A DNA stretch of 64,000 nt from NCBI RefSeq assembly GCF_004135345.1, contig NZ_CP035495.1, forward strand, positions 930,001 through 994,000, read 5' to 3'. A program made the position numbers and the translations under genes. Numbering within the stretch: position 1 is the stretch's first letter; each line of letters begins with the position of its first letter. Shown here in pieces: positions 18,283-20,779 of this stretch. This DNA is from Xylanimonas allomyrinae. GTDB taxonomy: Bacteria; Actinomycetota; Actinomycetes; Actinomycetales; Cellulomonadaceae. A model generated the notes under the pieces. The model searched no databases. It saw only the letters and a list, made by a program, of their open reading frames with translations, and was not told where the DNA came from.

Positions 18283-18318
18283 GGGGTGCCTCCTTTGGCG
18301 CCGGTCCTCCACCCGGAG

Positions 18319-18338
18319 CCTAAAGCCTGTCGAACAAC
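18319..18338 (+). repeat. Left terminal inverted repeat
   Basis: CCTAAAGCCTGTCGAACAAC, the exact reverse complement of 20713-20732. It marks the left end of the element. Confidence 0.95.
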
Positions 18339-18376
18339 CTCGGTGAGGTGTACGGCAGCGTCCTTCTCGGACGTCC

Positions 18377-19840
18377 TTATGCCGCGGTGGCGGTGAGGGT
18401 TCCCACGTCATCCCGGCTGGTTTCGTCTGCGCGTGCGCGCGGGCCAGAGCCGTCTGGTCGGTGGGCGTTGGTGACCTGGCCTCGTGCTTCGGGGTCCAGG
18501 ACCTGGGTGGTGTGGTGCTGTTCGCCCCAGGTGGCGAGGTTGATCGCGGCGTTGCGGTCGCGATCGATCGTCAGCCCGCAGTCCTCGTTCTCACAGGTGA
18601 AGACGCGGTCGCCGAGGGTGAGCGTGGTCTTCACATCACCGCAGGCCGAGCAGGTCTTCGACGAGGGGAACCACCGGTCCGCTGTGACGACTTGCCCGCC
18701 GCGCCAGGCCATCTTGTAGCGCAGTTGGCGGGCGAGCTCACCCCAGGCCGCATCGGAGATCGCTGCGGCGAGCCGGTGGTTGGCGAGCATGCCGGTGATG
18801 TTGAGGTCTTCGATGACGAGCCGGTCGTGGGTCTGGACCAACGAGTTCGAGACCTGGTGCAGGAAGTGGTGACGGCGGGCACGGACCCGCTCGTGGTGAC
18901 GGGCGAGGCGGCGCACGGCGGCACGCCGGCTGGCGGAGCCCTTGACCTTGCGAGACACCGACTTCTGGAGTCGCCGGGTGACCGGTTGCGCGGTAAGCAA
19001 CGCTTTGGGTGCCGTGGCCACACGCAGCACCTCGCTGCCATCGCGGGTAGCGGCGACGACGGGTGCGTGCAGCCCGCGGTCCACACCGGCCCACCCAGCG
19101 TGATCGGCGTCGTCACGGGCGGGGTGCTGGGCGGCGGGGTGCAGGTCGGCGGCTTCGACGTTCAAGCTGATGCGCCACCGGCCGCCACGCCGCGAGACGG
19201 TTGCGAACAAGATCCGTGCCCGGCCCTTGGCGAGCATGCGCCGCAGGCGGCGGGTGTCGTCGTGGACCTTGATGGCGCCGATCCCGGGCAGCGTGACCGA
19301 GCGGGGACCGGCCTCGCCGAGACGGATCGTGGTCCGCTGGCCGGTCCTCGTCTTGGAGGTCTTGTTGCGCAGGCGGAATGAGCCGCGCTCGTAGTTCTTC
19401 TTCTTGAACCGTGGGTGCCCGACCGGCCGGCCGGCGCGCTTGCCGCGCCGGGAGCTGGTCCACGCCCCCAGTGCTTTGCCGAGGTCGACGACGGCTTCCT
19501 CGAAGACCTGCGCGGATACCTCCGAGCGCCACGCAAGACCTGTGACCTCCAGATCAGCAGTCCCGTCGGCGGCGACGACGAAGCGGCGGCCGGCGTCCTC
19601 GGTCTTCTTCCACGCGTTGAACGCGTTGATGAGGTCGAACCCCGTCCACGGGACCAACACCGCGTCGGGGTCGTCGCCGGTGAGCACCTCGGTGGCGTTC
19701 TTGGATGCCTGGCGGGCGTTCAGGTGCAGTCGCAGGCCCTGGTTGAACGCGAACCGTGCGGCGCCCTCGTGCCGGGCCAGGGCACGCGCCTGCTTCGCGG
19801 TGGGGTCAGCCACCAGTTGGAACGTCGTATGCCGGGCCAC
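18377..19840 (-). CDS. tnpB: TnpB/OrfB family RNA-guided endonuclease
   Basis: About 487 residues from the GTG at 19840; GTGs at 19864 and 19870 are alternatives and no clear ribosome-binding site decides. The RuvC-type triad is intact: Asp in GVDRGLHAP (about 254), Glu in VIEDLNITG (about 344) and Asp in TIDRDRNAAINL (about 426). A zinc finger lies between the last two (CSAC then CENEDC). The N-terminal half has the basic OrfB_IS605 helix-turn-helix pattern. TnpB proteins cut DNA guided by an omega RNA usually made from the gene's 3' end, which here would be the 58 bp between the stop and the left repeat plus the gene end. The C-terminal tail after residue 440 is Arg/Asp-rich and probably disordered. 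Confidence 0.85.
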   Translation of the reverse strand: MARHTTFQLVADPTAKQARALARHEGAARFAFNQGLRLHLNARQASKNATEVLTGDDPDAVLVPWTGFDLINAFNAWKKTEDAGRRFVVAADGTADLEVTGLAWRSEVSAQVFEEAVVDLGKALGAWTSSRRGKRAGRPVGHPRFKKKNYERGSFRLRNKTSKTRTGQRTTIRLGEAGPRSVTLPGIGAIKVHDDTRRLRRMLAKGRARILFATVSRRGGRWRISLNVEAADLHPAAQHPARDDADHAGWAGVDRGLHAPVVAATRDGSEVLRVATAPKALLTAQPVTRRLQKSVSRKVKGSASRRAAVRRLARHHERVRARRHHFLHQVSNSLVQTHDRLVIEDLNITGMLANHRLAAAISDAAWGELARQLRYKMAWRGGQVVTADRWFPSSKTCSACGDVKTTLTLGDRVFTCENEDCGLTIDRDRNAAINLATWGEQHHTTQVLDPEARGQVTNAHRPDGSGPRARADETSRDDVGTLTATAA

Positions 19841-19910
19841 GACCAGGACGCTACCGGCGGGCACCGACACGACCAGGGATGTCAGGCCTGACGGCGACGA
19901 TGCCGTGGGT

Positions 19911-20713
19911 GTGACCGCTCCCGCCCGCGCCGCCAGTACCCGTCCGACCTGACCGGCACCGCATGGTCGCGGATCAGCGCGCTCGTGATCCCAGCCCACA
20001 CCCGTGGCGGGCGGCCGTGCCGTGAGCACCGGTGGCGTGAGTACGTCGACGCGCTGCTGTTCGTCGTGACCACGGGCATCCCGTGGCGGGCGCTCCCGCA
20101 CGACTTCACCATCACCTGGTCCGCGACGCACAAGCACTTCACCAGATGGACGAACAGACGGCTGTGGGAGCAGGTCCTCGCTGTCCTGCGCGCCGAGGAC
20201 CGCGTCCAAGACGGCCGCGACCAGCGGCCGACGGCGGCCGTTGTCGACTCCTCGTCCGTCAAGTCCACCCCGGTGCCCGGCGAGCGCGGCTTCGACAGCG
20301 CGAAGAAGGTCGACGGGATCAAACGCCACATCCTCGTCGACACCGCCGGACGGCTCCTGGCCGCCCACCTGACCGCGGCGAACATCCAGGACCGGGTCGC
20401 GTTCGCCGACCTCCTCGCAAAGAACCCCTGCCCCTCCGTAGCGCACGTGTGGGCCGACAAGGGCTACACCGGCCAGGCGCCCGCTGACGCTGCGGCAAAG
20501 GCTGGGATCCAGTTCCAGATCGTCTCCGGCCCCAAGCCTGCCAGCGGTTTCATCGTTCAACCACACCGGCGGGTGGTCGAGCGGACGAACGGGCGGATCA
20601 ACCGGCATCGCCGCCTCGCGCGGCAGTACGAAGCCACCCCCACCGCCCACGAAGCATTCGTCATCCTGTCCCAGATCCAGCTACTCCTGCGCCGGCTCGA
20701 CCGCTGCGGGTAG
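19911..20713 (+). CDS. IS5 family DDE transposase (one-base shift near start)
   Basis: The domain is complete from RRQYPSDLTGTAWSRI onward: GIPWRALPHDF, first Asp in AAVVDSSSVK, second in VWADKGYTG and Glu in RVVERTNGR. In this frame no start codon precedes the domain. GTG at 19911 is in the other frame and joins if one C is added around 19920-19926, giving 267 residues; otherwise the first GTG is at 19985, inside the domain. The missing base matches the undercalling seen elsewhere in the window. It would catalyse movement of the whole element, and its stop lies at the inner edge of the right inverted repeat. Confidence 0.8.
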
Positions 20714-20732
20714 TTGTTCGACAGGCTTTAGG
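20713..20732 (-). repeat. Right terminal inverted repeat
   Basis: GTTGTTCGACAGGCTTTAGG, the exact reverse complement of the left end at 18319-18338. Confidence 0.95.
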
Positions 20733-20779
20733 AGCAGGCCGGGCGGGCGCGGTGTCCCAGATGCGGACACGTGCCGCCG

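Follow-up and report, generated by a model that had tools for sequence, protein, structure and literature searches.

Within a 64,000-nt stretch of the Xylanimonas allomyrinae genome (NZ_CP035495.1, positions 930,001 to 994,000 of the forward strand; hereafter the window, whose own numbering is used unless stated otherwise) we found an IS5-type insertion sequence that encloses, beside its DDE transposase gene (tnpA), a gene for the RNA-guided nuclease TnpB. The sequence-only reading of this DNA had described a divergent IS5-type DDE transposase and a RuvC-intact TnpB inside one pair of perfect 20-bp repeats; profile searches and repeat coordinates bore this out, and the arrangement goes beyond chance, as 15 elements have this tnpB between the same ends. 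The interpretation that we favour, with a probability of about 0.6, is that an IS5 element carries a captured tnpB whose product recuts empty sites and thereby keeps the element in place; the expression of the guide RNA (omega RNA), the border between its scaffold and guide, the target-adjacent motif (TAM), cutting and retention are the parts of this interpretation that we infer.

Anatomy of the element and its copies

The features of the element are as follows.

18320–20731, no strand: whole element including target letters (C-TA on the left, TA-G on the right), 2412 bp, of which 2406 bp lie between the duplicated TAs
18321–18322, no strand: left copy of the TA target duplication, as judged from the empty sites of two other insertions
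18323–18338, plus strand: left terminal inverted repeat, AAGCCTGTCGAACAAC, whose minus strand forms the 3' terminus of the candidate omega RNA
18300–18319, minus strand: predicted guide, the chromosomal flank beside the omega RNA end, deduced from the anatomy and from the ISDra2 and IS607 TnpBs (PMC10097598; PMC10711439)
18320–18520, minus strand: candidate omega RNA, comprising the last ∼47 tnpB codons, the 3' untranslated stretch and the left repeat; the 5' limit is approximate
18377–19840, minus strand: tnpB, 487 aa from a GTG before ARHTTFQ (a presumed start codon), RuvC D-E-D intact
19911–19952, plus strand: short GTG...TGA frame of 13 codons, off the tnpA frame, a possible frameshift leader of tnpA
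19928–20713, plus strand: IS5-type DDE transposase frame, 261 aa plus stop, start unclear
20713–20728, minus strand: right terminal inverted repeat
20729–20730, no strand: right copy of the TA target duplication, as judged from the empty sites of other insertions

The stretch between the duplicated TAs (18323–20728) begins and ends with 16-bp perfect terminal inverted repeats, which extend outwards to perfect 20-bp repeats (18319–18338 and 20713–20732), and inside them tnpB on the minus strand and the transposase gene on the plus strand are divergently oriented. The element is assigned to the IS5 family by its IS5-type DDE transposase, its inverted terminal repeats and the short duplication at its target, and presumably to the IS427 subgroup within it. 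It is not an IS607 element, which would carry a serine recombinase as TnpA, as the two genes between the ends are those of TnpB and the IS5 transposase; nor does it belong to IS200/IS605, whose members have a Y1 transposase and end in hairpins instead of inverted repeats, as it has a DDE enzyme and perfect inverted repeats.

The tnpB frame is open, with a possible GTG start, as far as 19864 (18377–19864; 495 aa). Its product matched the Pfam families OrfB_IS605 and Cas12f1-like_TNB as well as the NCBIfam model guided_TnpB NF040570 (220.8 bits, cut-off 100), whilst the top-scoring NCBIfam model was IS607_TnpB NF038280, with 310.8 bits under its cut-off of 350; comparison with the solved TnpB structure 8h1j gave an E-value of 1.5 × 10−50. 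Residues D262, E352 and D434 (numbering of P0001), which we take to be the RuvC triad, are invariant in 17 of 17 aligned TnpBs, as are the zinc-finger cysteines C405, C408, C424 and C429. By profile match, RuvC D-E-D and zinc-finger cysteines alike, the product is a TnpB and a predicted nuclease. An AlphaFold model was of low confidence (predicted local distance difference test 68.7, predicted template modelling score 0.46) and was not used. The transposase scored 180.3 bits against NCBIfam IS5_3 NF033580 (cut-off 110), was above cut-off for both Pfam DDE_Tnp_1 and DUF4096, and contains VVDSSS, WADKGY and VVERTNG, presumably the motifs of the DDE triad.

Repeat and whole-element searches of the same genome revealed two complete copies, namely the window copy (copy 1) and a second at genome positions 1303623–1306034 (copy 2), together with a third that is split by ∼1.5 kb and a 66-bp right-end remnant. 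In the third (copy 3, L011; 1338418–1342350) tnpA is interrupted by the ∼1.5 kb insert between 1340532 and 1342050, which encodes a protein that we take to resemble IS110-type transposases; the tnpA frame is open in copies 1 and 2. Alignment to copy 1 shows 14 differences over 2412 letters in copy 2 and 11 over 2115 in the larger portion of copy 3. These differences are clumped, with 12 of the 14 in the last 363 letters of copy 2 and eight of the 11 between 1214 and 1637 in copy 3, a pattern that suggests exchange between the copies, as by gene conversion.

The candidate omega RNA and the target site

Fourfold-site diversity was determined for 12 elements in 25-codon windows of 2–14 sites each. 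The median over codons 1–425 was 0.43 (range 0.12–0.63), after which values fell to 0.126 in codons 426–450, 0.037 in codons 451–475 (nine sites) and 0.0 in codons 476–495 (four sites); diversity was 0.10 in the 38 letters after the stop codon and 0.025 in the terminal repeat. In a consensus fold of 14 sequences 96.9 % of cells were paired, against 95.0 in shuffles, and there were 16 both-side pair changes compared with 5.8 ± 1.7 in shuffles, with none of 500 shuffles reaching as many. The collapse of diversity over the last 45 codons, together with these paired changes, points to an omega RNA that runs into the terminal repeat.

The conserved 3' region of tnpB continues straight into that repeat, and no tnpB end of its own was seen inside. 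Moreover, the omega RNA of L234, a tnpB locus of Xylanimonas pachnodae without these ends, aligns collinearly, such that the L234 letters GCTCGGCACGCTGGAG face GTTCGACAGGCTTTAG. What lies between the IS5 repeats is thus probably not a solo tnpB with boundaries of its own, as the 3' region runs into the repeat and the L234 end aligns to it; judging from the alignment, the terminal repeat seems to occupy the position at which the guide scaffold of the ancestor ended. The sequence-only reading had guessed that the guide RNA might end where the transposon ends, a suggestion that gains support from the 3' conservation into the repeat and from the L234 alignment.

With regard to the target, GAGC had been proposed as the duplication, but these letters are present at copy 1 only and the empty sites show TA inside CTAG. 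The flanks of copies 1–3 differ, with CTA on one side and TAG on the other as their only common letters. For the insertion at L054 we examined 16 homologous loci of the genus, of which one is filled and the other 15 all read CTAG at the insertion point, three of these with 60 identical letters of left flank; for copy 2, the empty loci of four genus relatives read CTAG (two) or CTAC (two). As the empty loci of two independent insertions read CTAG or CTAC, we conclude that the element enters CTAG and duplicates TA. A search for the empty site of copy 1 among 11 genus genomes returned the own genome as sole match. A 70-bp mini-element in genome G023 begins TTAA, and the first target letter there is therefore T; this mini-element (L242 2032–2104, G023:C20) has the two terminal repeats and, between them, part of the omega RNA tail. 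Across the window, the target letters CTAG are strongly avoided, occurring seven times where 157 would be expected from base composition. At occupied sites the omega-side end reads TTTAG in 14 of the 15 elements and TGTAG in one, but never CTAG; in a further element, that of G508, it reads TTGAA.

On the interpretation that we favour, the transposase would insert the element into CTAG, duplicating TA, and TA(G) would form the last scaffold letters, with the guide starting just outside. TnpB would recognise CTA(G) followed by a match to the guide, a combination present only at the empty site, and its TAM is probably CTA(G). Where the site is occupied, TTTAG precedes the guide match, and the element would be spared; after excision, or where a sister chromosome is without a copy, TnpB would cleave the empty site, which would then be refilled with the element through recombination. 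The predicted scaffold border and TAM follow from the same logic as has been applied to IS607 and Fanzor1 scaffolds.

Distribution, origin and rival explanations

When 200 of the family's 221 available genomes were searched at the DNA level and the loci read, 15 elements with both ends and this tnpB were identified in 10 genomes of that one family, which include Isoptericola cucumis, Oerskovia flava, Luteimicrobium album, L. xylanilyticum and Xylanimicrobium (now Xylanimonas) pachnodae, the last assigned by NCBI to the Promicromonosporaceae. A 16th element, with a TnpB of 79 % identity and a tnpA remnant, was found in G508, from another family of the same order, giving a total of 16 elements in 11 genomes under seven genus labels. 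In a scan of the order at 1e-150, two of 396 genomes passed, the own one included. The sequence-only reading had named copies with the same ends but without tnpB as the observation that would count against it, should they be the norm. They are not: of the 14 paired ends present in 23 selected genomes, 13 enclose a tnpB element, the 14th is the 70-bp mini-element of G023, and other end matches are single.

Searching with the transposase across the 200 family genomes (E-values up to 1e-25) gave 21 matches in eight genomes, 18 of them within the described elements; the other three are two distant IS5 copies in G010 (39–40 %) and a 53 % fragment in G011:C1, which has one recognisable end and no tnpB match on that contig. 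The elements of G080 and G196, in which both ends are present, yielded no tnpA match in this search. From a collection of 84,980 species, 94 tnpA relatives were retrieved with two peptide patterns taken from close relatives, and 80 were kept. The tnpB gene adjoins tnpA in six of these, those at 51–81 % identity; in two more another tnpB lies ∼1.5–2.2 kb away, and in one of them, L206, the IS5 copy's own repeats exclude it. No such tnpB was present in the locus of the remaining 72, of which 54 hold at least 1.8 kb on the tnpB side and 18 are too short to judge. A scan of the class gave matches in nine of 394 genomes, the own one included; at the nine places in the eight other genomes (42–54 %) the fetched DNA contained no such tnpB, although the 54 % match (G757) is at a contig end and cannot be judged. 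On plasmids TnpB had one distant match (43 %) and TnpA only matches below 60 %, the best among the matches listed being 43.8 %; viral contigs yielded 20 TnpB relatives of 26–38 % identity.

In a tree of 24 TnpBs, 12 fall into one clade with support of 100/98, consisting of 11 TnpBs that lie between both ends and that of L143, for which one end was found. The sister of this clade is the L234 TnpB, beside which we noticed by eye no transposase among neighbouring frames of at least 150 aa. A single clade of this kind makes a single capture likely, in which an IS5 element acquired, on one occasion, a solo (IS1341-like) tnpB that it has kept ever since. In 10 of the 15 elements (L010, L011 and L058–L060 being left out) the nucleotide distances of TnpA and TnpB agree, with a Mantel r of 0.67 that was reached in 18 of 5000 permutations. 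The ratio of non-synonymous to synonymous substitution rates (dN/dS) had a median of 0.21 for TnpB (77 pairs, 13 elements, last 75 codons left out) and of 0.31 for TnpA (77 pairs, quartiles 0.23–0.70), the latter being raised because tnpA of L058–L060 is partial or undetected. TnpB is under purifying selection; the median synonymous divergence in tnpB is 0.55. Decay of the two genes is lopsided: TnpB is open throughout in 14 of the 15 elements (L052 is frame-shifted), whilst most tnpA genes lack an uninterrupted frame with the triad, with E changed to K in L050, the first D lost through a deletion in L055, a partial gene in L058 and none detected in L059 and L060.

The YPSDL start region of tnpA was located in 11 of the 15 elements, in five of which the frame continues without a stop well upstream of the motif, through tnpB, and the closest start candidates are 35–52 codons ahead. 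A GTG-started short frame of 12–21 codons precedes tnpA in all 11 copies at a constant frame offset and terminates 13 bases into the YPSDL motif; a frameshift start of tnpA is possible.

A number of results weigh against our interpretation. An uninterrupted tnpA with all three acidic residues exists in just three of the 15 elements (L009, L010 and L051), and in the six other copies with a located YPSDL region (the own three, L049, L053 and L057) no in-frame ATG, GTG or TTG lies between the last stop and this motif; for these reasons present mobility is doubtful. As to the RNA, further pair types numbered 19 against 18.0 in shuffles (130 of 500 as high) and give no signal, the structure was derived from the same alignment, such that slid controls flatter it, and the single-sequence fold energy is not exceptional (z −1.64). 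Rfam returned no omega RNA match, the lone match being a miRNA model far below its gathering score. A loop-to-tail pseudoknot, between AAGC in the loop of CCCCGAAGCACG and GCTT at the omega end, was considered and rejected, as it is conserved but shows no covariation and has one mismatch in G080. The asymmetry between the ends is likewise frail: CTAG at the other end in four of 15 elements, against none at the omega end, is weak on its own (p = 0.10), and the four changes at the omega-side end versus 17 at the other, in 300 letters each (p = 0.006), include nine of the 17 from L059 and L060, p being 0.22 without these two and 0.34 when the own duplicates are also left out. Differing constraint on the two ends was consequently discarded as not robust.

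The same data bear on four other explanations. If tnpB merely rode as passive cargo between the IS5 ends, the conservation of its omega RNA would reflect solely that TnpB is a selfish nuclease acting on its own, functionally unconnected with the IS5 transposase. This would fit the open TnpB frames where tnpA is broken, partial or undetected (L053, L054 and L056–L060), the solo TnpB relatives of the family (52–62 % identity), which had no transposase beside them in six loci read by eye with a composition filter (L063–L068), and the disappearance of the stronger omega-end constraint without L059 and L060. We nevertheless regard it as unlikely, in view of a conserved 3' region that ends in the terminal repeat, an L234 omega RNA end collinear with that repeat, and the agreement of TnpA and TnpB distances. 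That neither transposase nor nuclease works today is somewhat less probable again: the own tnpA copies indeed want an ordinary in-frame start and 12 of 15 tnpA genes have no uninterrupted triad-bearing frame, but the few differences among the own copies bespeak recent spread or exchange, and the TnpB frame has stayed open almost everywhere.

Adoption of TnpB by the host as a regulator or defence nuclease, with the IS5 parts as relics, would account for purifying selection without intact tnpA (dN/dS of L009 versus L058, L059 and L060 being 0.22, 0.20 and 0.25). It is very improbable, however, given that the RuvC residues are intact in all aligned TnpBs, unlike in nuclease-dead regulators such as TldR, that flanks and hence predicted guides differ among the 15 elements, and that three near-identical copies occupy different places in the own genome. 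That an IS1341-type tnpB element became nested by chance in a plain IS5 copy deserves scarcely any credence. Such an explanation could draw on the solo appearance of the family's tnpB relatives, on the short plain IS5 relatives (∼0.9–1.1 kb between inverted repeats) and on the 72 of 80 tnpA relatives without such a tnpB; as a one-off event it is refuted by the recurrence of the arrangement in 16 elements from 11 genomes and seven genus labels, by the synonymous divergence of tnpB and the single TnpB clade, and by a homologue of the solo omega RNA end that falls on the IS5 end rather than inside, and it survives solely in the form of an ancestral capture.

Comparison with known systems

In ISDra2 the omega RNA is made up of tnpB 3' sequence and the right end of the element, and a TAM is required (PMC10097598); in IS200/605 the excision junction is cut and the element re-copied by recombination (PMC11870625). 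The element described here would share with these an overlap between the 3' end of tnpB and the omega RNA (in our case a candidate) as well as a TAM beside the target (PMC10097598), but differs in lacking a Y1 transposase and in having terminal inverted repeats and a TA duplication. In IS607 TnpB elements such as ISXfa1, an invariant flanking nucleotide belongs to the scaffold (PMC10711439). The present TnpB has its best profile score with the IS607 model, albeit below the cut-off, and is unlike that group in that a DDE enzyme and long terminal repeats are found and no serine recombinase.

Solo tnpB loci of the IS1341 type in the same family (L225–L241) have TnpBs of ∼52–73 % identity (those aligned) and the omega RNA core, but no IS5 repeats were found with them and the last omega RNA nucleotides differ. 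For L225–L232 (G127, G123 and G097) the common core mostly ends CACGC(C/T)GTA, and we noticed no transposase beside tnpB in the loci read; two of these genomes hold three or four diverged tnpB copies or pieces. Plain IS5 elements, such as those of Gluconobacter (L152) and Rhodococcus (L305) and the loci L318 and L319, have a homologous transposase, similar end letters in L152 (AGAGCCTGAC) and TA beside both ends in L152 and L318; unlike the present element, they measure ∼0.9–1.1 kb between the inverted repeats found and contain no tnpB.

Bacterial TnpBs have been described with Y1 transposases or serine recombinases, whereas Fanzors occur in many eukaryotic DDE transposons (PMC10711439). In a full-text literature search we recognised no report that places a bacterial TnpB within a DDE element, whether IS5 or another, although most subscription papers lie outside that search and an earlier mention is possible. 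If our interpretation is true, a bacterial TnpB has been kept in a cut-and-paste DDE element, and such captures occur in bacteria too. The element would then offer a tractable bacterial system for studying how the end of a foreign transposon comes to be built into a guide RNA, with the sharp prediction that the TAM equals the IS5 target CTA(G).

A close parallel is that of Fanzor1 and Fanzor2*, which occur within DDE transposons of eukaryotes and viruses, mariner, Sola2 and IS4-type elements among them (PMC3627910; PMC10711439). For Fanzor1 the guide RNA scaffold is predicted to include the terminal repeat and the target duplication (PMC10711439). As in Fanzor elements, a nuclease of the TnpB family lies inside a DDE transposon with terminal inverted repeats; unlike in these, which have eukaryotic or viral hosts and Fanzor proteins, it is a bacterial TnpB in an IS5-family element. 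We tentatively suggest, with somewhat less than even confidence, that the element is a bacterial counterpart of Fanzor capture, stemming from a single event in the Micrococcales in which an IS5 element took up a solo tnpB. The terminal repeat would have become both transposase binding site and guide RNA 3' end, CTAG both insertion site and TAM, and the nuclease the part on which selection acts; elements with decayed tnpA would persist through RNA-guided cutting of empty sites and recombination, as homing elements that have largely outlived their transposase.

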